54,298 bases of DNA from a virus, in IMG/VR virus record IMGVR_UViG_3300020465_000027, positions 1-54,298 of that record; one strand, 5' to 3'. Position numbers and translations under genes: made by a program. The notes beneath the pieces are model-generated. The model searched no databases, was not told the origin of the DNA, and worked only from the letters and a program-made list of their open reading frames with translations. Below, piece after piece: positions 2,311-53,472 of this stretch (positions are counted from its first letter, which is position 1; every line of letters begins with the position of its first letter).

Positions 2311-5300
2311 TTATGTTGTGTAGTAGTTGTAAGAAACATAAACATTCCAGTTACCTGGATCATCTTTAATCAATGTAAATGTATATACATCGTATGCATT
2401 TGTAGTTCCAGTAGGAGCTCCAAAACCACCTAAGTATCTTTCACTCACGTTACTACCATCAATAGTAACATCAGTTAACTTCCTAGCAGTACCACCATTT
2501 TTTGTGATAAGAGTTGCGGTTACAGATTCACCAGAAAGAACATTTGATGTTAACGCATTACTAGCATCAAATCTGAAGTTAACAACGAAGTCAGAAGAAG
2601 CATCTCCACGGAAATGATACACTTGATATGTACCAAGATTAAAGTCAAAGTTACCACTTATACCACTACCAGAATCTGCAACTCTTTCTTTTAGTTGTGC
2701 TCTAACAAATCCTCCATTAACTGTTATTCCAGCAGCAGTAAGAGATCCAGGAATTGTAAGATTTCCAGATGTATCATATGTTGCTGTATTACCACCACCT
2801 GTTTTTAATGTGATGTCAGAGTTGTTTGCAATTGAAACTTCTGAGTTACCATGAACAATCTTGGTAGGATCTATAGAAACCGTTGCCCATTGAACTCCAC
2901 TAGCAGTGCTTTGTAAATACTGACCATTAGTACCAGTACCACCACCAGCACTTAATGTTCCAGTTAATACTGCACCAGAAAGAGTTTTATTAGACAGAGA
3001 CTGTGCAGAATCAAGATCAACAATATCACCAGCTGCTGTTCCACCAATTGTCTTACCAAGCACTGTAGTAGCAGTTAGAACACTAGTATTATTAATATGG
3101 TATCCCTTACCAGAAGCAATATCCATATTCTCAGATAAGATCCAACAATCAGAAGTATCTGACCAATTGAATGTCTTGTCGGTTGTACCCTTCAAGGTGA
3201 TACCACCTCCATTGGCGGTAACATCTGTAGCACCACCAGCACCGAATGTAGCACCAGTAGCAGATCCAGATCCACCGAATGATGAATCAAGTGTTACAGT
3301 ATTTCCACTTAAAGTAGAAACTTTAACAGTGCCAGTAAGTGTTACGTTACCACCACCACTTGTTAGTGTAACAACAACGCCTGGTGCAAGGTTACTTGTA
3401 TCACTTACATTGGTAATCTGATTAGAACCTTGTGTAATATCACCAGTGAAAGATCCAGAATTAACTGAACCAAGTTCAATGTTACGATCCTTTGCTATAA
3501 CAGCAACTGAATCCACTGTTGTTGTAGATCCTTGGACTGTTAAGTCACCACCAATAGTAAGGTTACCAGAAACAGAACTTAGGTTATCAACATATGTCTT
3601 AACCGCTTTTTGTGTAGGACATTTGACATCACTATTTTGTGAAAGAGTTCCGTCTGTTGAGAATTCATTAATAGAAGCACCTAACTGAGCACCAATAGAA
3701 CCCAATCTTAATGATGATAGACCAGTTAAGTCAAACGCAGAAGCGTCTAGAGTTGCCTTACCAGTTGCCTGTTCAACCTTGAAGAACTTACCAACTGCAA
3801 AGTTACCATCTTGGTCAGTAGAGACGTAGTAAACACGACCTGGACGATCTTCGTCAATTTCTTGTGAAGGAACATTAACCTGATTAGGTAAGAACGGCCA
3901 GTTTGTTTGTGCTCTATTTCCTGTACCAACGTCTAGGAAGTCATGTGCAGTTAGACGTACCTGTGAATACTTGTAACGAGTCTTGAATGATTGACCATTA
4001 CCAGCACCAATTGTTTTCTCATCAGCAAATTGAAGGATTGTAATACCTGTTGCATCCGCAGAAGCAGAAGTAACCTTCATAAACTCATTATCAATCTTAA
4101 CGTAGTCAGTAGCAGCAAAACCAATACCTGCTGCCTTAACACGAATAGTTGTTACAGAGTTATCAAAGTCTGCTATAACCTCATCCTGAGAAGCAACCTT
4201 CTGTTGTAGGATTGTAATTGTAGCACCAGAGTTATGTGCAGCTGCACTTGTACCTTCCTGAGCACGATTCAATCTAACAGATGACGCTGTTGGGAATGAT
4301 ACAACCTCAAACATCTCATTACCAATAATGACATTAGCACCAATAACCATTCCTGACACAGTATCAACTGTGACATCATGTGGAGATGAAGCACCTTGTG
4401 TAATGTTTGCTTGAATTGTTGCAGTTGTTCCTACATTATCCCACCAAGCAATTGTTGAAGTACCATCATGTGCAGCAGCACTACTTCCTAATTGTCCTCT
4501 AGTTACTACTAAATTACCACGTCCATCTGGAGCAGAGTAACTAGAACTAGAGATAACATATGATCCTGCATCATTGTTAGATCCATTATCAACATACTCA
4601 ACAGAACCACCTTGGTCTGGAGCGTATGATAAACCTTCAGTAACAACAAGGAATCCTAATTGACCTCTAACAGCATCTGTGTTATTAACAAGAGTTGCTG
4701 TAGCACTTGATGTAGCACCAGTAATTAGTTCACCCTGTGAGAATGTTCCTTTAATTGGAATATAATAAATTCTTTGTGATGTAACTGATTGATCACTTCT
4801 TAGTTCACCAATAGCACCTGATGTACCACCACTGATTCTTTCATTTACTTGGAATGAACCACTAGAAGAACCTTGTGGATCTGTAGTTAGCATTAAACCA
4901 CCAACTGTACCATCAACTGTTGTCTCACCAGCATCAAATCCTCTTGATAAGCAACCATACTTACCATAAGAAGAGTTACCAGATACAGCACGTATTCTAG
5001 CACCTCCAGTAGAGATGTAAGAGATGTGTGCATAATATGTGAAGGAGGACACAACCTCAGCAGCTGCTGTACCCTTACACCAGAACCCTACACCGCCTTC
5101 TAACACCTGTGTATAGGCATCAAAACACATTGACTTAAATGAAGGGGTTGGAGACCCGTCAAAGTGTGCATGAGCATCTCCATCAATCAACGCACCAACA
5201 GCAGCACCACCAATTGCAGAACAGTTTTGAATGTAAGGTGATCTAGTAATTGGTGAAGCGGGATCAAGTCTTATGTAAACACCCTTTGTAGTAGAACCTA

Positions 5301-7356
5301 CAATGTCTTTATCATTAGAACCGCTAGGAACGAATCCTGTCATTCCTTCCATAACTAAGTCTTTAACAATGTTATGTGTTGCAACATAAATCATTGTTGA
5401 TTCGCTGTTTATCTGATTAGTAACAGCTGAGATTGCTTTGTAACCATTTGTACTGGTTGCATGATTCATGTTGCCATTGGTAATGGCAGTAGTGATGATT
5501 GTAGCAAATGTATTAAGAGCAGCTGTCTGTGTAGCACACTTAGGACTGCTAGGATCATTTGTTCCCCCAAACATTGTTTGGTTCTTTGTGTTACCAGCAG
5601 ATTTAGTTACAGTATCACTTTGAATTACTTCTGCACCAACAGTATCAAGATATCCAACAAGTATACTATCTTGTCCAGCATTTCCTGTGATAGCAGAACC
5701 ACCAACATATGCAGTACCATAATCAAATACTTTATTGTTACCACCTGACTTCATGTTGTAAGCAAAATCAGCAACAAGTGCTTGTAGGCGAGATTTAACA
5801 GTTGCTTCTGTACCACTGACAGCACCATTGTTTGCTACATGACGATGATATGCTTCATGAGCAAGGAATTCTGCGTTGCTTGTAAGTAAATCTGAAGCAT
5901 CTCCATGTTTATTAGATAAAACATCAACATACTTGTCGCTAGTTGTCCATAGTCCACCTGATACCATCAGACCGATTACTTCGGTTTTAGCAGCATTGAC
6001 ATCTAAAACTTTGAGTTGCTTAGTTCCAGTATCATTCTCTACAGTATCACCTCTTCTAAATGAAGTTAATGCATCAACTGTTATTGTTATCTGATCTGAA
6101 TTACCTGCAATTGGTTTAATAATTGTGTTTCTAATATTATCACCAATAAGAGAAACGAATGCAGGAATATGAATTGGAAGACTTTCTTCGTAAAGACCAG
6201 CTTTAACATATACACTAATTGGATTTGTAGCACTTGGTTTTAAATTTCCCGTTAATGCAGTGATATAATCCATTGCATAACGAACAGTTCTGAATGCTCT
6301 AGAAATTTGAAGACCATTATTAGTATCGTCTCCAGTTTCAGCAACATAATAAACACTAGGTGTTGTGTTGTTATTTTCCCATCTTGGAAGTAAGGGAGAA
6401 CCACCAACTGTCAGAACTTTTCCACTTGCAGCTGCTTGTTCAGCAGCAGTACCAGTTGATCCAGATGGAAGTGCAATTCTGTTAATACCACCAGCAGCCT
6501 GATAAAGTAAGTCACCAGTTTCTTGAAGAACCTGTGCAGCAGCACCACCTTGTGCAATATAATTCCAGTAGTTACCGTTCGTATCTAATTCAGGAGCTTG
6601 TGCAGCACCAGTAGTTCCAGAAGTTATACAGATATATGTGTTTGAGTTTCTGTTAACAATGTCACCTTTTTGATACACTGTTGAAGCAGACCAAGCACCA
6701 GTCCACTTAAATCCTTCAACTAAAAGTTTCCAATATGCTGTTGCTGTTGGAGGATTACCTGTTGTAGATACTGTACAAACGTATGAATAACCACCATATC
6801 TAACAACATCACCTGGAGCATATGCTGTTGAAGTTGAATAATCTCCTTGAGCAGAGAAACCAGTTGTAACAACAACCCAGTTAGTAGTATCTAAGTTTGG
6901 TGTTGCTGTTTGACCAGTATGATTTGTTTTTGAAGAATAAGTATATCCTCTGAAAGTTACAATATCACCAATTTGATATGTTGTTGAAGCGACCCAACTA
7001 TCTTCAAATTTTAGACCCTCTAAGTAAGTAGCGAAATTAGTATCGGAAAAAGTAGCACCTGATGTATGTCCAGTAGTAACACGATATTGTGAATTACCAT
7101 ACTTAACAACATCATTTACTTTATACCAAGTAGTTGCAACCCAATCTCCTTTACTAACAACCCCTTCTGTGTGAAGCGACCAGTTGCTAAGATCAGATGA
7201 ATAAAATAAATTCTCATTTGATGCTGATGTATGGTTCGTTGTACATACATATGCATTTGCACCGTACTTGACGATATCGTCAATGACGAAAGCAGTGGAA
7301 GTAGTCCAATTACCCTTCCAATTAAACTTAAGTCTGCCGAGTCTAAAATCTGCCAT
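2311..7356 (-). CDS. Giant tail fibre: five CBM5/12-like modules plus beta-helix, 1681 aa
   Basis: Probable host-recognition fibre. Residues about 12-265 hold five tandem 45-50 aa modules of the pattern W...T.Y..GD.V.Y.G..Y.C...HTS, like chitin-binding-type (CBM5/12) folds. Near residue 335 begins a pectin-lyase-like beta-helix signature (YYVAETGDDTNNG, then FRTVRYAMDYI). The middle (about 690-880) is paralogous to the 867-aa fibre (SPYIQN, GALIDGDAH, STGGARIR, SSYGKYG). Two GTF..GE.ITG.TS.A.A modules follow, then a shared block around residues 1214-1250 (GASINEFSTDGTLSQNSD) leading into a GDLTVQGSTTTVDS fibre shaft. Start has AGGA upstream. A CTAAATA late box lies 47 bases upstream inside the previous gene. 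Fibre role is well supported; ligand unknown. Confidence 0.9.
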   Translation of the reverse strand: MADFRLGRLKFNWKGNWTTSTAFVIDDIVKYGANAYVCTTNHTSASNENLFYSSDLSNWSLHTEGVVSKGDWVATTWYKVNDVVKYGNSQYRVTTGHTSGATFSDTNFATYLEGLKFEDSWVASTTYQIGDIVTFRGYTYSSKTNHTGQTATPNLDTTNWVVVTTGFSAQGDYSTSTAYAPGDVVRYGGYSYVCTVSTTGNPPTATAYWKLLVEGFKWTGAWSASTVYQKGDIVNRNSNTYICITSGTTGAAQAPELDTNGNYWNYIAQGGAAAQVLQETGDLLYQAAGGINRIALPSGSTGTAAEQAAASGKVLTVGGSPLLPRWENNNTTPSVYYVAETGDDTNNGLQISRAFRTVRYAMDYITALTGNLKPSATNPISVYVKAGLYEESLPIHIPAFVSLIGDNIRNTIIKPIAGNSDQITITVDALTSFRRGDTVENDTGTKQLKVLDVNAAKTEVIGLMVSGGLWTTSDKYVDVLSNKHGDASDLLTSNAEFLAHEAYHRHVANNGAVSGTEATVKSRLQALVADFAYNMKSGGNNKVFDYGTAYVGGSAITGNAGQDSILVGYLDTVGAEVIQSDTVTKSAGNTKNQTMFGGTNDPSSPKCATQTAALNTFATIITTAITNGNMNHATSTNGYKAISAVTNQINSESTMIYVATHNIVKDLVMEGMTGFVPSGSNDKDIVGSTTKGVYIRLDPASPITRSPYIQNCSAIGGAAVGALIDGDAHAHFDGSPTPSFKSMCFDAYTQVLEGGVGFWCKGTAAAEVVSSFTYYAHISYISTGGARIRAVSGNSSYGKYGCLSRGFDAGETTVDGTVGGLMLTTDPQGSSSGSFQVNERISGGTSGAIGELRSDQSVTSQRIYYIPIKGTFSQGELITGATSSATATLVNNTDAVRGQLGFLVVTEGLSYAPDQGGSVEYVDNGSNNDAGSYVISSSSYSAPDGRGNLVVTRGQLGSSAAAHDGTSTIAWWDNVGTTATIQANITQGASSPHDVTVDTVSGMVIGANVIIGNEMFEVVSFPTASSVRLNRAQEGTSAAAHNSGATITILQQKVASQDEVIADFDNSVTTIRVKAAGIGFAATDYVKIDNEFMKVTSASADATGITILQFADEKTIGAGNGQSFKTRYKYSQVRLTAHDFLDVGTGNRAQTNWPFLPNQVNVPSQEIDEDRPGRVYYVSTDQDGNFAVGKFFKVEQATGKATLDASAFDLTGLSSLRLGSIGAQLGASINEFSTDGTLSQNSDVKCPTQKAVKTYVDNLSSVSGNLTIGGDLTVQGSTTTVDSVAVIAKDRNIELGSVNSGSFTGDITQGSNQITNVSDTSNLAPGVVVTLTSGGGNVTLTGTVKVSTLSGNTVTLDSSFGGSGSATGATFGAGGATDVTANGGGITLKGTTDKTFNWSDTSDCWILSENMDIASGKGYHINNTSVLTATTVLGKTIGGTAAGDIVDLDSAQSLSNKTLSGAVLTGTLSAGGGTGTNGQYLQSTASGVQWATVSIDPTKIVHGNSEVSIANNSDITLKTGGGNTATYDTSGNLTIPGSLTAAGITVNGGFVRAQLKERVADSGSGISGNFDFNLGTYQVYHFRGDASSDFVVNFRFDASNALTSNVLSGESVTATLITKNGGTARKLTDVTIDGSNVSERYLGGFGAPTGTTNAYDVYTFTLIKDDPGNWNVYVSYNYYTT
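6562..7323 (-). repeat. Five tandem chitin-binding-like modules in the fibre N terminus
   Basis: Protein-level repeat covering residues about 12-265 of the 1681-aa fibre. Each copy has a leading Trp, a Y..GD(I/V)V motif, a second aromatic Y..G..Y, and a Thr/Ser-rich tail often containing HTS or HTG. Copies are diverged at the DNA level, so this is an old expansion rather than a recent slippage event. Confidence 0.8.
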
Positions 7357-8234: not shown

Positions 8235-11200
8235 TTAGATAATCCAGACCTGAGTAAACGGTGGTTGGAAGAGTTGTACTTGTATGAGTGCGATACCAGA
8301 AATTGTGAGGTTACCACTTCCAATGTAAGGAGCACGTATAAACGAATCATCTGCGTTATTAACATTTGATATTCTTCCAGAACCTTGATATGCGTGAACA
8401 CGGAGATCAATACTATCTCCTGTAATATCAATTTCAACTCTTGGTTGTTCTGCAAAGGTGAGTAATGGATCTCCTGATGTTCCTCTGATTGCAAGAGTTC
8501 CACCTTGACTGATAAGTCTTGCAGTTCTTGCTTGAACACCTTCTCCAGTAAAGGAGAATAGCATTTGTTTTTCAAGAGGATTGAAAGTGAGAGACTCAGC
8601 AGCACCACTAAGTTTTCTAAGAGAACCAAATCCAACAAAGTCTCTTGTTCTAACAACAGTTGCATCTCCAAGAATCCTTGTTGTACCAGAACCAATATAA
8701 ATTGGAGAGAATTTATCAATGACATCTCCAAGTGTCCTAACTGTTCCTTGACCAACTTTATCTCTTGCTCTCGTGGTTGTAGCTTGACCCAATAATGAGA
8801 AGAGCATTTGCTTCTCATCTGGATTAAAGGTAAGAGATTCAGCAGCACCACTAAGTTTTCTAAGAGATCCAGATCCAATGTAAGGTCTGCTACGAGCAAT
8901 GTCACCATCTCCATTAATCCTAAGTAAGGATGGAAGTGTAGTGATATCAATTGCTCTAGACTCTGCTGCACCAGATAATTTTCTAAGTGAACCAGATCCT
9001 GCAAAATCTCTTGCTCTAACTGTGGTAGCATCACCAGTGATAAAGATATTACCAGAACCAATATTATTTGGAACCAATATATCTCTGGCAACTCCCCTAA
9101 GTCTAAGAGTTCCACCTTTACTAATTTCTCTAGCAAGTCTACTTTCAGAAGATTGACCTGTAAAGGAGAAGAGTAATTGTTTTTCAGTAGGATTGAATGT
9201 AAGAGATTCAGCAGCACCACCAAGTTTTTTGAAGCTACCAGAACCGATGTAATCAGCAGCAATTCTATGAGATGAATCAATATAAAGTTTGAGTCCACCA
9301 ATAGAATTCCAATTAGGAATAAATCTAATATCTAATGCTTCTGGATATAATCTAATATTTCCAGATGCTGTTTCTGTGGTAGATTTGTTTTCTTCACCCT
9401 TACCTGTAAAGGAGAATAATAATTGTCTTTCTTGTGGATTGACTGTAGATGATTCAGCAGCACCGCCAAATTTTCTAAACGAACCACTACCTTTGTATCT
9501 TGGAACTTGAACAGCTCTAGCATCACCACTAAATCTGAAGAGACCAGTAGTTTCGTATGCAATCGCTGATACAACAGTTGCACTATCAAAGGTAAATAAT
9601 ATACCAGTTGCAATCTCAGATGAAGATCTTCTTTCCTCTCCTCTACCTGCAAATGAGAATAGAATTTGTTCTTCGTCTGGATTGAGCGTAATACTTTCGG
9701 CAGCACCAGATAATTTCCTGAGTGAACCAAAGCCAATAAATGGTTTGGTTTGCTTGACAATTCCCTCGCCAGATATAGGAATTCTTCCAAAAACATCTTC
9801 TTGGAATCTGACCTTTGGAATCGCATCTCCAAATATCCGTATTTCTGTTCCTTCTTCTGGAGGATTGGCAGTAACTTTTTCTGTAACAGATCCTGTAAAA
9901 GAGAACAGTAATTGTTTTTCTTCTGGATTGAATGTAATAGATTCTGCTGCACCACTTAGTTTTCTTAGAGAACCAGATCCAACAAACGCTCTTGTTCTGT
10001 CCGTTCCACCAATACCAGATATGAAAATTGTTCCAGATGATTCTTCTGCATATGCAAGTAAAGGATCTTCTGATGTTCCACGTAAACGAACTTCTGCTCC
10101 TTCTTCTGGAGGATTTGCAACAAAACTTTCCTTTCCTTCTCCAAGGAAGGAGAAGAGCATTTGTTTTTCTAGTGGATTGAATGTTACAGATTCTGCTAAA
10201 CCACTTAGTTTTCTTAATGAACCAGATCCAACATAAGTTCTTGTTCTTGGAGTAGAAGCATCTCCAATAAATCTGAATCCACCAGATCCAAAATGCTGTA
10301 AACTGAATAGTGCAAATACATCTCCACTGAATCTAAACAATCCACCAGAAACAGCACCAATAGATGTGGATTCTGATAATCCACCAAAGGCAAATAAGTT
10401 ACCAGATCCAATTTCAGTTGCAGGTGTAAAGGATTCATCAAGAGTTCCAGTAATTCTTGCAAATCCAGATCCAAAGTAAGGAGGTGTCCAGAATGTATCA
10501 CCTTTACCAAATATGTTAATAGTAGCTCTACCACTAACACTAATACCAGTAGAAACAATATTTTCAACAAAGAATGTTGTTGCTGTACCAGTAATGTCAA
10601 ATGCACCGTATGGACATACTTTAGAAAGACTATCAAGTATGTGTCCGTAATCTTCTCTTTCGTTAAAGTTAGGTTCAGATACGAGACCATAATCTTCAAT
10701 ATTATTTGGCGTTGTTATTGAAGGAGGAATTGCATATGCGTTTGGAGGAGCAATTGCAAGTATGGTTCCTGGTGCAACTTTAGTACATCCAGTTGATGCA
10801 GTAGTATTAGTGGTAATAGTACCACTAACTGTTATACAAGTAGCTGGAGCGTTAGGATCAATAATAAATCCGTAATCAAGTTCTATACCTTCTACACATG
10901 CAGAGTTATTATACGCTTCAGTATGTTTTTCGTGACCTTCTTCTAGATTTAACCATTGAAGTTGTGTATAACCAATTTGGGTATTTGCTTGATCATAGAA
11001 TTCAAGATAACCAAGATTAATATATCCGTTGTAAAGATCATAGTAATCAAGAGTAAATTCTCCAAGTTGTGATAGTTGATATATTTCTGGTTTTCTTGGA
11101 TGTAATTTAAATGAACCAGATCCAACATAATCAAATACTGTTTTCTCTGCCTCAAGTGTAGCAAGATTTCTAATTCTTCCTGATCCAACATAAGATTCAG

Positions 11201-12683
11201 TATGTTTCTCACTAAGTCTTTGTCCAACAAATGAGAAGAGCATTTGTTCTTCTGTTGGATTAAATGTGAGAGATTCAGAAGATCCACTGAGTTTTCTAAG
11301 TGAACCAAATCCAAGGTAACTATCAGATTTTCTAGTAACAGAATCTCCAGTAATCTTGTAAAGACCTGTAGTATGTTGAGCAGACCAAAGAATTGATTCA
11401 GCAGAACCAGATAATTTTCTGATTTCACCAGAACCAATATATTTTTCTGTGTGTTTTTCTGTAACAAGTCCATGAACAGAGAACAATATTTGTTCTTCTG
11501 TGGGATTGAAGGTAAGAGATTCAGCAGCACCTTCAAGTATTGGAATTGTTCCAGTTCCCTCAATATGAGGAGTGTAATATGTTTTACTTGTTCCAGTAAG
11601 TGTAAATAATCCTCTCGCAAGTTCTGAAACAAGAGTAGATTCTGATAATCCACCAAAGGCAAATAAGTTACCAGATCCTGAAGCGATGTCTGTATTACTA
11701 TGATGTCCTTCACCTGTAAAGGAGAAGAGCATTTGTCTTTCTTGTGGATTGAAGGTAGCACATTCTGCTGCACCAGAAAATGTAAATAATGATCCTTCAA
11801 GTAATTCGCCAGCTGGTTCGTAAACTTCTGCAACTACTCCAGACAGCAGAATTTCTCCCCCTCCTTTTGGAGATGGGGAGAAGTTCTGATCTGCAATACC
11901 AGCGAATTGGAATGGCGGGACTGATCCATCAACAATGTAACCATATACATTAAGACCTTCTTGTTTACTGAAGATCGTGATTTTTCCTTCACCTACCCAT
12001 GCATTAGTTGCTTTTGCCTCAGCCTCACCAATTGTCTTAACGAATCCAAATGCTCTTTCTGATCTTGTACGCCAAATAAATCCGTGATCAATTCTAGTAA
12101 CCTGATCAAGACCAGTTATTAATCCATTATCCTCTGCAAAATTATGCGTATTTGTAATTAAACCATAATCTAGTTCAGTAAATTCATCAAATACATTTGC
12201 ATCATAAACATAAGTTCTTCTTTCATCAGCATTATTAAATCTGAATAATGATTGATGATCTCTGACACTAGTAAAGGATCCAATAGTTCTATTTCCAAGA
12301 TCATCAACTGTGCTAGGACCATGCAATCCTACTGTATCAGAAACAACTCCAGATTCATATGAAAATATACAAATTCCACCAGAACAATTAATATTTGTGT
12401 AAGGAACAACATTTGGAAATGTTACTGCTGAACCAGAAATAAAACTTCTTCCTCTCTCACCAACTATTAATATTCCACCCTTTCCATCTGTGGTATTAGA
12501 TCCTATTCCCTCTGATCCATAATTTCCAACGGTTCCATAATTAACTTCTTCAATTCTTTGTGTTAATGCTTGTTTGTAGTTATATTCGGTAACTACTGTA
12601 TTACTTTGGCTAGAGATTGTTTCATCTTTGTGCTCAAAGATGATTTTAGATAATATTCCCGATGACTTATAATTGTAACGCAT
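8235..12683 (-). CDS. Giant repetitive virion structural protein, 1482 aa
   Basis: Large beta-repeat protein without an enzymatic motif that I can see. About ten close copies of a unit G(S/F)GSLRKLSGAAES followed by (F/L)NP.E.Q.LFSF.G alternate with looser GSG..., TGL(F/Y)..(S/T)G and SGNLFAFGGLSES elements from roughly residue 270 to 1450. The N-terminal 250 residues are less repetitive and contain DYGLI / DNGLI / DHGFI elements; similar DYGHI-type elements recur near residue 660. Composition and repeats suggest an elongated fibre or tail decoration. It begins immediately after an intrinsic terminator with only AGG as a ribosome binding hint, so it may rely on read-through. Similar very long repeat proteins occur among cyanophage virion proteins; that is from general knowledge. 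Confidence 0.85.
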   Translation of the reverse strand: MRYNYKSSGILSKIIFEHKDETISSQSNTVVTEYNYKQALTQRIEEVNYGTVGNYGSEGIGSNTTDGKGGILIVGERGRSFISGSAVTFPNVVPYTNINCSGGICIFSYESGVVSDTVGLHGPSTVDDLGNRTIGSFTSVRDHQSLFRFNNADERRTYVYDANVFDEFTELDYGLITNTHNFAEDNGLITGLDQVTRIDHGFIWRTRSERAFGFVKTIGEAEAKATNAWVGEGKITIFSKQEGLNVYGYIVDGSVPPFQFAGIADQNFSPSPKGGGEILLSGVVAEVYEPAGELLEGSLFTFSGAAECATFNPQERQMLFSFTGEGHHSNTDIASGSGNLFAFGGLSESTLVSELARGLFTLTGTSKTYYTPHIEGTGTIPILEGAAESLTFNPTEEQILFSVHGLVTEKHTEKYIGSGEIRKLSGSAESILWSAQHTTGLYKITGDSVTRKSDSYLGFGSLRKLSGSSESLTFNPTEEQMLFSFVGQRLSEKHTESYVGSGRIRNLATLEAEKTVFDYVGSGSFKLHPRKPEIYQLSQLGEFTLDYYDLYNGYINLGYLEFYDQANTQIGYTQLQWLNLEEGHEKHTEAYNNSACVEGIELDYGFIIDPNAPATCITVSGTITTNTTASTGCTKVAPGTILAIAPPNAYAIPPSITTPNNIEDYGLVSEPNFNEREDYGHILDSLSKVCPYGAFDITGTATTFFVENIVSTGISVSGRATINIFGKGDTFWTPPYFGSGFARITGTLDESFTPATEIGSGNLFAFGGLSESTSIGAVSGGLFRFSGDVFALFSLQHFGSGGFRFIGDASTPRTRTYVGSGSLRKLSGLAESVTFNPLEKQMLFSFLGEGKESFVANPPEEGAEVRLRGTSEDPLLAYAEESSGTIFISGIGGTDRTRAFVGSGSLRKLSGAAESITFNPEEKQLLFSFTGSVTEKVTANPPEEGTEIRIFGDAIPKVRFQEDVFGRIPISGEGIVKQTKPFIGFGSLRKLSGAAESITLNPDEEQILFSFAGRGEERRSSSEIATGILFTFDSATVVSAIAYETTGLFRFSGDARAVQVPRYKGSGSFRKFGGAAESSTVNPQERQLLFSFTGKGEENKSTTETASGNIRLYPEALDIRFIPNWNSIGGLKLYIDSSHRIAADYIGSGSFKKLGGAAESLTFNPTEKQLLFSFTGQSSESRLAREISKGGTLRLRGVARDILVPNNIGSGNIFITGDATTVRARDFAGSGSLRKLSGAAESRAIDITTLPSLLRINGDGDIARSRPYIGSGSLRKLSGAAESLTFNPDEKQMLFSLLGQATTTRARDKVGQGTVRTLGDVIDKFSPIYIGSGTTRILGDATVVRTRDFVGFGSLRKLSGAAESLTFNPLEKQMLFSFTGEGVQARTARLISQGGTLAIRGTSGDPLLTFAEQPRVEIDITGDSIDLRVHAYQGSGRISNVNNADDSFIRAPYIGSGNLTISGIALIQVQLFQPPFTQVWII
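8560..11760 (-). repeat. Degenerate coding repeat array in the 1482-aa gene
   Basis: Ten NP.E.Q.LFS units, nine of them paired with an (R/K)K(L/F).G..ES unit, recur at irregular spacing. At DNA level the segment reading GATTCAGCAGCACCAC or close variants on the plus strand is the most conserved part, so copies are similar enough for homologous recombination. Confidence 0.85.
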
Positions 12684-14250: not shown

Positions 14251-14258
14251 TATTTATT
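14251..14258 (-). promoter_or_regulatory. Late promoter box AATAAATA before the 480-aa gene
   Basis: Minus strand reads TTAATAAATAACAG, one base from TATAAATA, 39 bases before the ATG. The TAA stop of the preceding 241-aa gene lies partly within it. Confidence 0.7.
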
Positions 14259-14982
14259 AAAGTGCTAGCTTCATTGAAACTACGCACCTCTGTATATTTA
14301 TAGCATATACAATTTTAAATTGTAAAATGTCTCCAGCATTCAGTGCAGTATTCCATGTGGAGAGTGACGTATCTTGATTTATACGTTGTGTTGTTCCTTG
14401 TCCAATATCACCTAAAGTTGGTCTTTCTGAACCACATATAGATGAAAAATTTGGAAAATTAGCAAAATCAACTTTACTAATATCAAACTGAACTTGACCC
14501 TCTTGATCAGCAATAATTGTCCATGATTCAATTTTGCCAGTTACATCAAGAGTCATATCTCCTTTGATACCAGAAGACATTGGTGCAGATCCAGCATCAA
14601 CAACAAAATTAATTGTTCTCGTTAAATCTGCTGTTGTAGATAATCCTACAACATAAACTTTTTGTCCTGAAGTTGGAGGTGTTGTAAAAATTAAATTGGT
14701 GCCACTTGTACTGTAATCAATACCAGGAACTTGCACTAAACCATCAATAGCAACAATCAATTGTTGATCATTTGCTGGTGTATATGGATCTCCAACAGGA
14801 TCAATTAGAGGAAATCCAGTATTGGTTCCATTAAATACCCAACTAGATGTATCAAGTATTTCGTTACCATACTGAAGATACTTACTAGGAATCTCATAGT
14901 TGACACCAACATTAAATTTCTTCTGAGGTTCAGAAAGAACCTGATAGTTAGAAGATTTTACTGATACGTTATAATTAGGCAT
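14257..14982 (-). CDS. Structural protein with a small beta domain, 241 aa
   Basis: Unnamed family, structural in character. Around residues 48-115 it has a fibre-type pattern: W.FNGTNTGFPL, then DQQLIVAIDGLVQVPGIDYSTSGTNLIFTTPP, a module also present in the 2819-aa baseplate protein (LLITLDGIFQEPGVAYTVSG, NITFAQPP), so the two share a domain. The C-terminal half (FVVDAGSAPMSSGIKGDMTLDVTGKIESWTIIADQEGQVQFDI) resembles a receptor-facing domain common at ends of phage fibre subunits. The start codon overlaps the stop of the 111-aa gene upstream as TAATG, suggesting coupled production of the pair. Confidence 0.85.
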   Translation of the reverse strand: MPNYNVSVKSSNYQVLSEPQKKFNVGVNYEIPSKYLQYGNEILDTSSWVFNGTNTGFPLIDPVGDPYTPANDQQLIVAIDGLVQVPGIDYSTSGTNLIFTTPPTSGQKVYVVGLSTTADLTRTINFVVDAGSAPMSSGIKGDMTLDVTGKIESWTIIADQEGQVQFDISKVDFANFPNFSSICGSERPTLGDIGQGTTQRINQDTSLSTWNTALNAGDILQFKIVYAINIQRCVVSMKLAL

Positions 14983-15317
14983 TAGGTAACTCCTGGTGTT
15001 ACTTCTACAATTCCCTCTATAACTCTTGTCTTAATACTTTGTGGTGATGTTAAAACTATATCATAAACATAACGTCTTGGATCTAATGCAGAAGTAGCAG
15101 TATTGTTTAATCCAATTTTTAAAATACCATTATAACGATCCACAAATGTAACAACAAAACTTGTTGCGGTAGTAGAAAAATAACTTCTCCGCATTTTAGC
15201 TTCTGCTGTATATCCTGTTAAATTAAGTGGAGTTGTATTATCCTCATTTTGGATATTGAAAGTAGCATCAAAATCTGTGCCCTTTTCTAACAGTAGATTT
15301 AAAGGAATTGCTGCCAT
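14982..15317 (-). CDS. Small conserved tail or fibre protein, BppU-N-like pattern, 111 aa
   Basis: The pattern L.L..GTDFDATFNIQNEDNTTPLNLTGYTAEAKMRR (residues 8-44) is typical of small beta-sandwich tail proteins with a G.....D.TG.T...K.R core, as in BppU N-terminal-type domains and related phage minor tail proteins; this is a pattern match, not a proven homology. The C-terminal half contains DPRRYVYDIVLTSPQ and EGIVEVTPGVT, matching the usual end of that fold. It lies between the fibrinogen-like fibre and the 241-aa structural gene, coupled to the latter by TAATG. A role as adaptor in a baseplate or fibre assembly is likely. Confidence 0.8.
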   Translation of the reverse strand: MAAIPLNLLLEKGTDFDATFNIQNEDNTTPLNLTGYTAEAKMRRSYFSTTATSFVVTFVDRYNGILKIGLNNTATSALDPRRYVYDIVLTSPQSIKTRVIEGIVEVTPGVT

Positions 15318-15322
15318 AATTT

Positions 15323-17293
15323 TTAATTAGTATCTCTAATCCACATGGTGTAAGAGTATTGAACATTGCTGTTTAAATCTCCTGGTTCATCTCTAAATTG
15401 ATTATCAATATTACGACATCTCTGATAACTAGAAGTATCTGCACGGGAAACACCAATCCCTTGCGTAGCAGAAACAGACTCACTATTTAAACCTTGTGGT
15501 GTAATCATAGAACGGTCTTGGTTACTTTCTTCAGTACCACTTGGTTCACCAAATCCAAAATATATTGTTGTTGCATTTGCAAAAACATCATCGTTTTGAC
15601 TGTATGATGTTACACTTAAACGTCTGAAACCACCGCCACCACTATTTCTTTGAGTACCTGCATCAACCCACATATTGTTTCCTCTTCCAAAGAAAACACG
15701 AGTATCAGCAACAGATGTAAATGTTTCAGTGTACCAAAGTTTTCTCAACCTCAAACCTTGGTCTTTCATCATAACTTGGTTTAAAGAAGCATTTGCATAT
15801 AATTGTGGATGTTTAAAGTTCTTACCAAAATTACCTGGCCAACCTATAGATCCCAACATGTTATATTCATCATCTGTAAATCTTCCACCATGAGAACTTG
15901 CTGATGTATAGTTTCCAGAATCCGTTCTGTGTAAGAAATAACCCCACATCCATTTGTATTGAGCAAATGAATTCTTCCATGTTGCTCCATCTTCACCCAT
16001 AACTCTAGTTCTATGGTCATCCCAGAAAGTTGCAACATGCATCCAACCACCACCATCAGTATCCATATCACAGAATACCTCAAATGCACTACCACCATAT
16101 CCTGATGGTTTTATCCAATATATCCCTGTCTCAGCAGTAGAATTAGATGCTTTAATTGCTCTAGCACTTGTTGCGGGATTTGATTGTGAATTTCCTAACG
16201 TCTCAGATTCACTAATTTTATATGAGACACCTACTAGTCCTTGTCCACCATCACCACCACGTCCAGTGTTGTCTTCGGCATTTGGAGAACCACCTTGATA
16301 TCCTCCGCAACCACCACCACCGCCGCCACCTAGTCCATCAGTACCACTTGATCCTTCTCTCATACCCCATCCAGTATCTCCTCCTCTACCAGTACCACCA
16401 ATTTCGCCACCAGCAATAGCAGTATCATAGGTATCATTTGCATATCCAGAATCACCACCTTGTCCACCATAACTTCCACCAGAATCGGGAGTAGAACCAG
16501 CACCACCGCCACCTCCACCAGCAGCAAATTGGGATGTAGCACCACCAAAAACAAATTTAAGATCTATTGCACCACCACCAGATCCACCACCTTGTGCCTT
16601 GTTCCCATTGTTTTGTTGAACATCTCCACCACGACTACCAGCACCACCGCCACCTGCTCCATATGGATACGAACCATCGGAATAACCTGTACCACCACGA
16701 TTTCCAACACCAACTACATTATTTGATCCATATGTATTTTGGTTTGTGACACCGTACTCATTATGTCCTCCAGAAGAACCTGGACCACCACCAGATCCAC
16801 CATCTTTAGCGTCGTTACCTGTTCCTGATCTACCACCTCCACCACCACCATTGGCTTGGAATCCAAAGAAGTTAGTATTTCCACCAGTATTACCAGGATT
16901 TGCACTACCAGGTCCCGCACCTTGAGGAGCACCAACACCACCGTCTCCTCCACCACCTAAAGAAGCACCATGACCAGTAGCACTGTAATTTGTGTATGCA
17001 GTAGAGTAAACAACTCCACCAGCTCCACCACCACCGCCACCAAACCAGTCAGCGTCATGACCACCAGCACCACCACCGCCACCTGCAACAGCTGCAAAAG
17101 CAATAGGTCCATCAGCTTTAGTACATGTCCATGTACCATTGTCCAAAAACATATGTGTTTTATGTTTATATCCATCACTGTCAAACCAGACGTATTCAAT
17201 TCCTCCAGAAGCTGCTACATCTGGTTCATATTGACTATCCAATGTTCTAAAACCCGAAACGGATCCTCCACCAAGTGTTTGTAAAAAAGGCAT
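15323..17293 (-). CDS. Glycine-rich fibre with C-terminal fibrinogen-like domain, 656 aa
   Basis: Probable adhesin. Residues 1-66 form a short N-terminal domain. Residues about 70-352 are an extreme Gly-rich region with runs of up to seven Gly separated by Asn/Ser/Asp and aromatics, like polyglycine adhesin tips of some T4-like phages. Residues about 375-656 carry the signature of fibrinogen C-terminal or COLFI domains: SARAIKAS, TGIYWIKP, FEVFCDMDTDGGGWMHVATF, followed by a Trp-rich body and a C-terminal YSYTMWIRD. Related domains are typical of animal lectin-like proteins and some bacterial or phage adhesins that bind sugars. GGAGTT lies before the start. The antisense strand gives His/Thr-rich spurious frames because of the Gly codons. 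Confidence 0.87.
   Translation of the reverse strand: MPFLQTLGGGSVSGFRTLDSQYEPDVAASGGIEYVWFDSDGYKHKTHMFLDNGTWTCTKADGPIAFAAVAGGGGGAGGHDADWFGGGGGGAGGVVYSTAYTNYSATGHGASLGGGGDGGVGAPQGAGPGSANPGNTGGNTNFFGFQANGGGGGGRSGTGNDAKDGGSGGGPGSSGGHNEYGVTNQNTYGSNNVVGVGNRGGTGYSDGSYPYGAGGGGAGSRGGDVQQNNGNKAQGGGSGGGAIDLKFVFGGATSQFAAGGGGGGAGSTPDSGGSYGGQGGDSGYANDTYDTAIAGGEIGGTGRGGDTGWGMREGSSGTDGLGGGGGGGCGGYQGGSPNAEDNTGRGGDGGQGLVGVSYKISESETLGNSQSNPATSARAIKASNSTAETGIYWIKPSGYGGSAFEVFCDMDTDGGGWMHVATFWDDHRTRVMGEDGATWKNSFAQYKWMWGYFLHRTDSGNYTSASSHGGRFTDDEYNMLGSIGWPGNFGKNFKHPQLYANASLNQVMMKDQGLRLRKLWYTETFTSVADTRVFFGRGNNMWVDAGTQRNSGGGGFRRLSVTSYSQNDDVFANATTIYFGFGEPSGTEESNQDRSMITPQGLNSESVSATQGIGVSRADTSSYQRCRNIDNQFRDEPGDLNSNVQYSYTMWIRDTN
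16238..17086 (-). repeat. Polyglycine-coding region
   Basis: Low-complexity DNA (CCACCACC-type on the plus strand) encoding residues about 70-352 of the fibre. Gly runs of 3-7 residues recur at irregular spacing. Locally GC-richer than the neighbouring DNA because of Gly codons. Confidence 0.85.
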
Positions 17294-17312: not shown

Positions 17313-19916
17313 TTAACCATAAGTGGACATACTACCAAGAACTGTCCAAGCAGCATTTCCTGTCTTAACAACTGAGAAAGTATATACATCAATTGCATTA
17401 GCAGTACCAGCCGATATAGCAGTATCATTTGCCCATTTAACTGTAACTGAAGTACTATCAATTTTAAAACTGTTCATATAATATGCTGTTCCACCTTGTG
17501 TAGTCAACATAGAAACAGTCATAACCTCACCAGTATTCATCATTGCATTTAATTGAGTAGATGGGCCTCCACGTAAATTAAATCCCCAGTTAGCACCTGC
17601 ATTATTAGTGTAATAATGGAGTGCATTATCTTCTAAGTTAATATTAACATTAGCTCCAGTTAATGTGTCAGTCTTAATATCTGCGTTTTCAAGAATTTCA
17701 TTAACAACAAGTCTATTGACTTCTAAACGACCTACTTTTACATCTGCATCACTATATGTTAAATCATTTCCAGCAGTTGATCCATCAAACGTACCAGTAC
17801 CAAATACAATTTTATTCTGACTCTCATCCCATCCCATGAAGACGTTAGAATCAGAACCACGTTCAATAATAATACCAGCATCCTTAGTAGCACTACCAGT
17901 AGTACCAGTTCCTAATTCTATTCTTACATCAGAAATTGTTGTATTGCTAGAGTTAACTGTACTTGTAGTACCATTAACAGTCATGTTTCCAGTAACTGTT
18001 AAGTCATTTCCAACAGTAAAATCGCCACTACTGGAACTAATAGCATCAACATATGTTTTTACAGCACGTTGAGTTGGAACTTTAACATCACTGTTTTGAG
18101 ATAAAGTGCCATCTGTTGAGAATTCATTGATAGAAGCACCAATAAGTCCACCAATAGCACCAAGTTGTAATGACTGAAGACCCTTCAAATCAAAAGCAGA
18201 AGAGTTAAGAGTTGCTGTACCTGTTGCTTGGTCTACCTTAAAGAATTCTCCAACATAGAAATTACCTAAGTCATCAGTTGCAACATAGTAAACTCGTCCT
18301 GGATCAGTTGCGTTAGTGATAATCTGATCTGCCTGAGATGGAGATTGTGTTGGTTCACCTGGCCAGTTAGTTGTTGTTTTATCACCAGTACCAACTTGTA
18401 AGAAGTCGTGACCAGTGAGTCTAATAATACTAAATCTCTTTCTACATTTAACGATTGTAGCATCAGCAACAGGTGTAGCTCTAGAGGTAGAAAATACAAT
18501 TACATGATAAGCAACACTATTTGCTGTAACAGAACTTACTGACTGAATCTGATAAGCGTTACCATCTGTCTGAGCAAATTCTAATGAGTCACCTGCAACA
18601 GCTGAGTTACTAAATTGTGTTACCAGTATTCTACCAGACTGATTACTTTCAAATGAACCACCAGAATCTAGTGTTGCAGTAGCACCAGAAGCACCACCTG
18701 TTACAGTTTCACTTGCTTGGAATGTACCTGTCTTTCCTACAATATAAATTCTTTTTGGTTCTGACTGAACATTAGCAACGTAGGCAGTAGCACCTGATGT
18801 TCCACCAGTTATTTGCTCACCAAGAGTAAAGGCTGTTGTAATGACGTTAGTGTAGGTAAGCATTGTACCTTTAACAGTTCCGTCATTTGTTGTTTCTGTA
18901 GAATCTGAACCAGCAGAGTACACACCATACTCACCATAAGAGTTACTGGAGTTTAGAGATCTTATCTTAGCACCACCAGTAGCAGCATAACCTACTTGAC
19001 AATAGTATGTAAAACCACTAATAATCTCAATAGCACCATTGTCTCTTGCATAAATTCCAAGACCATCACTATGAATAGCAGTATATGTATGGAATAACAT
19101 ACTCTTGTTACCAGAGTTATGTAAAGCACCATCAACTAATGCACCAGTAGCACCATCACCAAACGAAGTTACATTATAGATGTAAGGTGATTTAGTTGCA
19201 ATTGGACTAGCAGCATTCAATGCAAAATAAGTACCACCAATTGTTGCATTTTCGGGTTTATATGCTGGACTTCCTGCTGTGTATCCACCCATACCATCAA
19301 GAATAATATCTTGAATAATAGTACCATCACTACAACGGAATAGTGTAGAACGAGTATTGAGAATAGAACCACCAGAATCTAGTCCTGAACCTGGTTTAAT
19401 AATAGTTGATCTTAAACTGTCACCAGCAATTGTTGTATATGGAGGAATAACAATTGGAAGTTGAACTTCTTCGTATACACCTGCCTTTATGAAAATGATT
19501 GCGGGATTTAATGCATCAGGTGTTCCTATAGAACCAGAAGCATACTTAAGACTTCTAAACGCTGTATCAATAGAACCACCACGACCTTGTGCATCAACAC
19601 CATTAGTAGAAACATAGTAAACTGTTGGAGCACCACCAATACCACCCCAAGATACATCAGTTCCGTCAGTTTTAAGAACAGATCCAGCAGCACCAATATT
19701 TAACTTGGCAATCTTACCGTTAGCATCATAGTAAAGAATGTCTCCTCGTGTACCCGTATTGATGTTCTCTCCTTGAAGACTTAATTGACCACTTGCGGTA
19801 AATGCTTGAGTACCAGTAACAGACATTGTACCCGTTACTGCAAGACTGTGAGAGTCTGGGATTGTGACAGTCGTACCAGTACGACCTTTAATATTATCTA
19901 CTCTTAATGTTGACAT
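17313..19916 (-). CDS. Beta-helix tail fibre, paralogue of the 1681-aa fibre, 867 aa
   Basis: Probable tail fibre. It begins MSTLRVDNIKGRTGTTVTIP, a frequent N-terminal attachment motif of phage fibres. Residues about 99-170 contain YYVSTNGVDAQGRGG and FRSLKYASGSIG, then a beta-helix run (IFIKAGVYEEVQLPIVIPPYT). The middle aligns by eye with the 1681-aa fibre (SPYIYN, GALVDGALH, TGGAKIR, SNSYGEYGV), followed by two G.TSGATA modules and the shared block GASINEFSTDGTLSQNSD near residue 590. The C-terminal 110 residues form a compact beta-domain ending in TGNAAWTVLGSMSTYG, which also resembles the paralogue's end. A perfect TATAAATA box lies 40 bases upstream. Confidence 0.9.
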   Translation of the reverse strand: MSTLRVDNIKGRTGTTVTIPDSHSLAVTGTMSVTGTQAFTASGQLSLQGENINTGTRGDILYYDANGKIAKLNIGAAGSVLKTDGTDVSWGGIGGAPTVYYVSTNGVDAQGRGGSIDTAFRSLKYASGSIGTPDALNPAIIFIKAGVYEEVQLPIVIPPYTTIAGDSLRSTIIKPGSGLDSGGSILNTRSTLFRCSDGTIIQDIILDGMGGYTAGSPAYKPENATIGGTYFALNAASPIATKSPYIYNVTSFGDGATGALVDGALHNSGNKSMLFHTYTAIHSDGLGIYARDNGAIEIISGFTYYCQVGYAATGGAKIRSLNSSNSYGEYGVYSAGSDSTETTNDGTVKGTMLTYTNVITTAFTLGEQITGGTSGATAYVANVQSEPKRIYIVGKTGTFQASETVTGGASGATATLDSGGSFESNQSGRILVTQFSNSAVAGDSLEFAQTDGNAYQIQSVSSVTANSVAYHVIVFSTSRATPVADATIVKCRKRFSIIRLTGHDFLQVGTGDKTTTNWPGEPTQSPSQADQIITNATDPGRVYYVATDDLGNFYVGEFFKVDQATGTATLNSSAFDLKGLQSLQLGAIGGLIGASINEFSTDGTLSQNSDVKVPTQRAVKTYVDAISSSSGDFTVGNDLTVTGNMTVNGTTSTVNSSNTTISDVRIELGTGTTGSATKDAGIIIERGSDSNVFMGWDESQNKIVFGTGTFDGSTAGNDLTYSDADVKVGRLEVNRLVVNEILENADIKTDTLTGANVNINLEDNALHYYTNNAGANWGFNLRGGPSTQLNAMMNTGEVMTVSMLTTQGGTAYYMNSFKIDSTSVTVKWANDTAISAGTANAIDVYTFSVVKTGNAAWTVLGSMSTYG

Positions 19917-52675: not shown

Positions 52676-52960
52676 TTATCTTACTTTATAAAAAGTATAC
52701 TTTAAAAATAACTCTTCGCCCTTCTTAATCTCTCTTATCGTCTTCACATAGTAAATATTATCTTCGCACCACTTAATACAGTTAGGGTCGTCAGAATGGT
52801 TTATAAACCCTCCTAGAGGGGTTCTCCATATCATATCATCTATTATAATATGAGACACACCAAGATACATCATAGCATCTATATCCTCTCTAGCGAAGAT
52901 ACCTTGACCTGCTATGGAACTATCCTTTACATGTAATTCTTTTGGTAGTGCTTGGTACAT
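52676..52960 (-). CDS. Small SET-domain protein (lysine methyltransferase-like), 94 aa
   Basis: SET fold signature in order: SSIAGQGIFAREDI (residues 14-27), a central RTPLGGFINHSDDPNC (46-61) with the NHS..PNC motif that binds S-adenosylmethionine, then IREIKKGEELFLKYTFY (75-91) with GEEL and the catalytic-type Tyr. At 94 residues it is shorter than typical SET enzymes and lacks pre- and post-SET regions, so it may be a minimal methyltransferase or a binding protein. Its ATG overlaps the oxygenase stop as TAATG. Located directly before gp25, it may modify a virion or host protein; the substrate is unknown. Confidence 0.88.
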   Translation of the reverse strand: MYQALPKELHVKDSSIAGQGIFAREDIDAMMYLGVSHIIIDDMIWRTPLGGFINHSDDPNCIKWCEDNIYYVKTIREIKKGEELFLKYTFYKVR

Positions 52961-53472
52961 TATTTAAAATTTATGTTAACCACAATTCTATAAGGAGTTT
53001 TTCTAGGATGAGATGATGAATGCCAAACACTTCCGTCTATGATGAAACATCTTCCTTTCTTTGGTTGTATCTTTTGTATTATTTTACCATCTTTCTCACA
53101 GATGTTTGTAGGACCATCACTGTCATTCGCATAGTATATCAGAGTTTTATGTGGTTCTAGTAAATCAATATGATGCCTATGCTTGCTCACATTTTCATTC
53201 TTGTAGAATAGTCCACATCGTACACGCAATACTTCTTTAACCTTAATGTTTTGCTCCTTACAAGCATTAAACAATATAGGTAAGAAATGTATATGACGTG
53301 GACTCATGATAGGTTTTTTCTTATCCGTAGAATATAGTACAGCACTATTAGACCAAACCGCATCTTTTTCATATGCGGTAGGCGACATGTACCACGCAAA
53401 ATCATCGTGAAATATAGCCATTAGATAATCTTGGTGTTCTTCAGATATTACGTTATCAATTACTTGTACCAT
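52960..53472 (-). CDS. 2-oxoglutarate/Fe(II)-dependent oxygenase, 170 aa
   Basis: Probable dioxygenase of the prolyl-4-hydroxylase-like group. Visible iron ligands are His101 and Asp103 (HHID) and distal His151 in DGSVWHSS; Arg162 (PYRIVVNINF) fits the 2-oxoglutarate-binding Arg. The segment LEPHKTLIYYANDSDGPTNI and the PKKGRCFIIDG motif are characteristic. Such enzymes use Fe(II), O2 and 2-oxoglutarate to hydroxylate protein or small-molecule substrates; they are frequent in cyanophages, substrates mostly unknown. Translationally coupled to the SET gene. Start at the first Met; no strong ribosome site is visible. Confidence 0.92.
   Translation of the reverse strand: MVQVIDNVISEEHQDYLMAIFHDDFAWYMSPTAYEKDAVWSNSAVLYSTDKKKPIMSPRHIHFLPILFNACKEQNIKVKEVLRVRCGLFYKNENVSKHRHHIDLLEPHKTLIYYANDSDGPTNICEKDGKIIQKIQPKKGRCFIIDGSVWHSSSHPRKTPYRIVVNINFK

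Follow-up and report, generated by a model that had tools for sequence, protein, structure and literature searches.

The polyglycine tips of gp38 in phages S16 and PP01 bind receptors (PMC12892980), and receptor binding has been proposed for the polyglycine tip of Pam3 gp24 (PMC9608196). In pelagimyophages and cyanomyophages, the region beside VrlC is a hypervariable host recognition cluster (PMC7029224), and the variable genes of marine phages include one described as a 'fibrinogen-like coiled coil protein' (PMC3909814). Catalogues of bacterial and phage domains already include the fibrinogen-like module considered here, and its cyanophage homologues are hypothetical proteins. In the literature that we searched, we found no paper describing fibrinogen-like domains (FReDs) on phage fibres, no paper naming the family NF040941, and no description of an exchangeable polyglycine tip that occupies a defined fibre slot and bears a FReD-like head.

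Here, we describe a 656-aa ORF in a window of 54,298 nucleotides, positions 1 to 54,298 of IMG/VR virus record IMGVR_UViG_3300020465_000027. We propose, with a probability of roughly 70%, that this ORF encodes an exchangeable receptor-binding tail-fibre tip of a T4-like marine myovirus, built from a polyglycine body and a FReD-like head.

Gene neighbourhood and layout of the candidate tip protein

The features of the locus, all on the minus strand, are as follows.

17313..19916 (-): 867-aa tail fibre protein encoded next upstream (489 bits to phrog_9851, tail fiber protein)
15323..17293 (-): candidate tip protein, 656 aa; ORF from ATG to stop, in the slot between the fibre gene and the LtfC-like gene
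17096..17293 (-): N-terminal anchor, residues 1-66 (MPFLQTLGGGSVSGFR...), a probable fibre dock; sister tips have an MPFLQT-type start
16220..17095 (-): body of residues 67-358, rich in glycine (40%), assigned from composition, a phrog_2295 match and sister tips with Gly_rich_2
15326..16219 (-): C-terminal head, residues 359-656, with a FReD-like N-terminal core and last strand
16151-16180 (-): motif NPATSARAIK, residues 372-381
16034..16168 (-): GGGWT or fibrinogen-like core module, residues 376-420 (NF040941)
16106-16126 (-): motif GIYWIKP, residues 390-396
16043-16084 (-): motif FEVFCDMDTDGGGW, residues 404-417
15860..15883 (-): RFTDDEYN, residues 471-478, which fits a motif of other GGGWT domains
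15326..15352 (-): YTMWIRDTN, residues 648-656, the conserved last beta-strand, predicted as a strand
14982..15317 (-): LtfC-like protein of 111 aa, a probable chaperone of fibre assembly, encoded next downstream (87 bits to phrog_3304, L-shaped tail fiber protein assembly)
14257..14982 (-): conserved virion structural protein g241, 241 aa (phrog_10330, 303 bits), used as a neutral bait

The GC content is 35%. The LtfC-like protein scores 25.4 bits against PF23926, slightly below the cut-off of 27. Farther upstream lie baseplate wedge proteins and a VrlC-like protein of 2819 aa that is nearest to those of cyanomyophages (~43% identity); the fibre/tip cluster sits downstream of the VrlC-like protein. 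An Endonuclease V-like gene (52960-53472, minus strand; phrog_274, E 1.4e-33) adjoins the baseplate genes. The same structural cluster encodes a 1681-aa protein (2311-7356, minus strand) in which three stretches match Pfam CBM_5_12 (E 7.8e-22), a carbohydrate-binding module of the chitin type. A 1482-aa repetitive protein (8235-12683, minus strand; phrog_11522) contains recurring GSGSLRKLSGAAESLTFNP...KQLLFSFTG units, varies strongly across sister loci in length and identity (~25-75%), and is possibly a second variable adhesin.

The glycine-rich body that an initial annotation, made from the letters alone, had placed under the head is present, and the phrog_2295 profile matches residues 30-377. 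In the layout that we propose, residues 1-66 would attach the tip to the far end of the adjacent fibre. Residues 67-358 would form a polyglycine-type body, as composition and relatives suggest, probably with the polyglycine packing of S16/PP01 gp38 and Pam3 gp24. Residues 359-656 would form a globular head whose core, on HMM and fold evidence, is of the fibrinogen/intelectin/COLFI type. The LtfC-like neighbour probably aids folding or assembly of the tip.

A fibrinogen-like core and a diverged middle

The initial annotation had assigned a fibrinogen or collagen C-propeptide (COLFI) domain to about residues 375-656, naming as its signature GIYWIKP and FEVFCDMDTDGGGW, both of which are found where it put them; ten Trp residues were counted by eye on the sequence within the same stretch. 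The profile NF040941, "fibrinogen-like YCDxxxxGGGW domain", matches residues 376-420 over model positions 1-46 of 46 with 58.8 bits (E 3.8e-16) against a cut-off of 30 bits, a score that rules out a chance match for the core and by which we assign the ORF to this family (GGGWT_bact). The two HMMs proposed for checking the domain both reach or exceed their cut-offs, with alignments confined to the opening part of each profile: Pfam Fibrinogen_C (PF00147) gives 25.9 bits against a cut-off of 22 and spans only profile positions 11-47 of 221, and COLFI (PF01410) gives 26.2 bits, equal to its cut-off of 26.2, and covers only positions 24-70 of 233. The closest PDB sequence match (E 3.3e-5, residues 376-428) is the intelectin XEEL, or Xenopus embryonic epidermal lectin, and this similarity ends after ~53 residues, so that an intelectin-like body with calcium/glycan-binding residues is not found. 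The fibrinogen-like signature amounts to ~46-60 residues and not the entire stretch from 375 to 656. The observation that 59 of the 60 aligned members match Fibrinogen_C was not counted as evidence, because these members were fetched by the same motif.

In classical FReDs, an N-terminal Cys is bonded to the Cys of YCDM and a second pair lies towards the C terminus; the calcium/ligand site carries the motifs DxDxx and GWWxxCH. NPATSARAIK of the 656-aa ORF contains no Cys, and the classical disulfides are thus lacking; the head has only two Cys, C408 and C626, of which C626 is missing in the sister sequence. Inspection of the ORF sequence found neither DxDxx nor GWWxxCH. Because profile coverage, disulfides and ligand-site motifs all fall short, we refrain from classing the ORF as a complete FReD, intelectin or COLFI domain. 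It is plausible that the head acts like a FReD or intelectin lectin, and we infer that it binds sugar.

An AlphaFold2 (AF2) model of the domain, built with 59 relatives, is confident only at ORF residues ~360-425 and the last strand. Among the FReD subdomains A, B and P, this corresponds to a subdomain-A-like core plus the last strand, with pLDDT of 94-97 at domain residues 11-60 and 87 at the last strand, and ~30-40 across most of the ~220-residue middle. With this model as the Foldseek query, the best 50 PDB matches were all to intelectin, lamprey lectin, ficolin, FIBCD1, tenascin, angiopoietin, MFAP4, fibrinogen or the collagen C-propeptide (best E 1.9e-3; 47-103 alignment columns). Among viral models, the only meaningful matches were P-HM2 E3SSV2 (E 5e-4) and metaG-MbCM1 H8ZN14, 'phage tail fiber-like' (E 0.05). 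The family profiles and the Foldseek matches of the model thus agree in assigning the core of the head to the FReD/intelectin/COLFI type. What survives of the domain first claimed is thus its N-terminal part, by HMM and fold, together with a confidently modelled last strand; the claim does not extend to the whole stretch, since the Fibrinogen_C profile ends at about position 47 of 221 and the middle is modelled at low pLDDT.

The C-terminal 220-230 residues have no homologue in 50,697 phage records (best E 9), no match to GTDB genomes by exact peptides, and nothing in common with S-ShM2-type heads by profile-profile comparison. Among IMG/VR contigs, relatives of this part are limited to L002, an identical sequence that possibly comes from the same virus as the record under study, and L003, with 92% identity over the head. 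Aligned phage members had in common the N-terminal module and, at the end, a hydrophobic strand, with many non-aligning subtypes in between; this closing strand, ending W/Y-V/I-R, occurred in 51 of 60 aligned domains compared to 93 of 804 control ORFs. The pattern [KR]x[ST]Dxx[IY]N, picked after some sequences had been seen, occurred 29-53 residues past GGGW in 10 of 201 distinct domains, compared to 0.06 expected from shuffling.

These observations bear on the possibility that the head is a chimera, FReD-like only in ~60 residues at its N terminus and in its last strand, with an unrelated insert fold as its middle. This arrangement, which would be compatible with the adhesin role, fits with profiles that end at position 47, with a middle for which AF2 gives no confident fold, with the absence of the FReD cysteines and calcium/CH motif, and with relatives that have the N-terminal core and end strand in common and not the middle. 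We consider it possible but rather unlikely, given that [KR]x[ST]Dxx[IY]N recurs 29-53 residues past GGGW in the 656-aa ORF and in other phage and bacterial members, and that a binding surface is expected to diverge strongly in sequence. For a FReD-like head as we propose it, the N-terminal module and closing strand would flank a strongly diversified middle bearing the binding surface, and the ligand would be a host surface structure, most likely a glycan.

The initial annotation had called the domain best known from animal lectins, which understates a catalogued bacterial and phage domain. The pattern [YF]CDMxxxGGGW was found in at least 118 viral stretches and in several hundred bacterial genome loci, mostly in Myxococcota and other Deltaproteobacteria, and further in Bacteroidota, Planctomycetota, candidate phyla and two archaeal bins. 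Cyanophages S-ShM2, S-MS29, P-TIM40 and P-RSM4 encode the module downstream of a fibre gene. Because so many bacterial loci and viral stretches carry the core, a prokaryotic pool is a simpler source for it than capture of an animal gene by a phage, for which there is no support. In the freshwater Actinomycetia phage DSL-LC01, a gene with the GGGWT core (L007:2408-4882) lies just downstream of collagen-like proteins, another type of stalk.

Exchange of the proposed tip slot among sister phages

Using g241 as a domain-independent bait against viral contigs, we recovered 66 loci. The gene order g187 - fibre - tip - LtfC - g241 - g480 - g1482 is kept in close relatives where the contig extends far enough. 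Across sister contigs, LtfC (79-100% identity) and g241 (74-100%) are retained, but the tip differs. Two loci, L133 and L135, encode the same tip and head as the 656-aa ORF. In L194, a glycine-rich body carries a GGGWT head of the cyanophage S-ShM2 subtype (full-length alignment; phrog_10681, 111 bits; AF2 pLDDT of 33 with 16 sequences), and in L175 it carries a third FReD-like head, in which 57 residues are similar to the core of the ORF at a score below the NF040941 threshold. The tip of L178 (1150-2697) has the FReD core directly past the anchor, with no glycine-rich body; by eye, the ~250 residues after this core look laminin-G/concanavalin-like, and no Pfam match passed. The tip of L143 (2657-4576) combines a glycine-rich body with a phrog_1710-related head that lacks the CDMxxxGGGW core and has possibly lost or replaced it. 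This head resembles the L037/L053 subtype and ends in GYTTWVR. A laminin-G lectin domain fills the slot in L174, short tips of other kinds are found in L134, L139, L140, L142 and L157, and L134, L140 and L180 have unrelated or glycine-rich tips without the FReD core. In more distant sisters, the slot holds either a glycine-rich tip that lacks the core or a different gene.

The tips of L143, L175 and L194 pass Pfam Gly_rich_2, and an MPFLQT-type start is common to those of L143, L175, L178 and L194 despite their different bodies and heads. Tips with MPFLQT- or MSPF-type starts pair with fibres whose C terminus resembles that of the upstream 867-aa fibre (731-867, the last ~135 residues); in L134, L136 and L139, the fibre lacks this C terminus and the next protein starts differently. 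Such co-variation of fibre end and tip N terminus, in a small sample, is the pattern expected from a docking interface, and we infer docking because of this pattern and the gene order. One alternative is that the protein decorates the capsid or neck. Many structural genes occupy this region of marine myoviruses, and PHROGs annotates g241 as 'head and packaging', but the fibre gene lies directly upstream, the LtfC-like fibre-assembly gene lies directly downstream, and exchange of the slot is coupled to the fibre C terminus, all of which make a decoration very improbable. The same two neighbours and the exchange of the slot between sister phages uphold the phage fibre setting given in the initial annotation. 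As in the tip-adhesin class, the gene is encoded beside a fibre and a chaperone and its cassette is exchanged between relatives; an adhesin role is likely.

Between the ORF and one sister, dN/dS from small counts was 0.75 for the glycine-rich body and 0.45 for the anchor; the head gave 0.42 overall and 0.09 within its core module. The head is under purifying selection and is not drifting freely, on these small counts. Compared to L135, dS was 0.20-0.30 in the anchor and glycine-rich body and 0.11 in the head, a difference that could reflect recombination of the head. Substitutions between sisters are not restricted to adenines, which speaks against a diversity-generating retroelement.

The lower constraint on the glycine-rich body relative to the head is one of several observations in keeping with a different division of labour, in which the head serves for trimerisation or as an end cap, in the manner of the procollagen C-propeptide (COLFI), and it is the loops of the polyglycine body that touch the receptor, as they do in S16/PP01 gp38. 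The COLFI profile match is about equal to that of Fibrinogen_C, NPA...(I)YWIxP is common to the ORF and COLFI, and polyglycine tips alone are able to bind receptors (PMC12892980). However, the heads of sister phages differ far beyond the needs of a structural cap, and the slot is also filled by a laminin-G lectin domain (L174) and by a head without any glycine-rich body (L178). We therefore regard a cap as unlikely. With the head as the receptor-binding part, marine phages of this group would re-target by swapping the tip gene or its head; the exchange is seen in synteny, and re-targeting is what it suggests.

Comparison with known systems

We tentatively suggest, at somewhat below even odds, that the fibrinogen-like scaffold, its conserved core and closing strand enclosing a middle free to diversify, is a general means by which marine T4-like phages display host-recognition surfaces, that it is swapped together with polyglycine stalks at a single slot of the fibre tip, and that it is a prokaryotic counterpart of the FReD/intelectin lectins that recognise microbes. 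If so, the same core would serve microbial-surface recognition in animal immune lectins and in marine phage adhesins, and the exchangeable slot would link a named, uncharacterised domain, NF040941, to host recognition. Sister phages that differ mainly at one tip gene could provide a ready comparison set for matching head to host.

The ORF resembles FReDs (PF00147) and intelectins in the sequence and predicted fold of its N-terminal core, with XEEL (4wmo/5zc0) as the best PDB match. Unlike these proteins, it lacks the first cysteine (SARAIK in the ORF compared to SCNEIK in XEEL), the second Cys pair, GWWxxCH and DxDxx, and two thirds of the domain cannot be aligned. With COLFI (PF01410) it has in common the segment NPAxxxR...YWIxP...VFCxM, but its CDMxTDGGGW is FReD-like, the first cysteine is again missing, and its polyglycine body is not a Gly-X-Y collagen helix. 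S16/PP01 gp38 and Pam3 gp24 are similar in having a glycine-rich fibre tip whose recognition elements vary or can be exchanged (PMC12892980, PMC9608196), a likeness of glycine-rich composition, to which the ORF adds a separate FReD-like head of ~300 aa. Proteins of phrog_10681 and of the S-ShM2, S-RIM14 and P-RSM4 fibre clusters have the GGGWT core and a genome position near a fibre gene; between their heads and that of the ORF only the core is detectably common, and the remainder belongs to another subtype. NF040941 is matched over all 46 positions; that family comprises only the 46-residue core, which here is carried on a glycine-rich phage tip.
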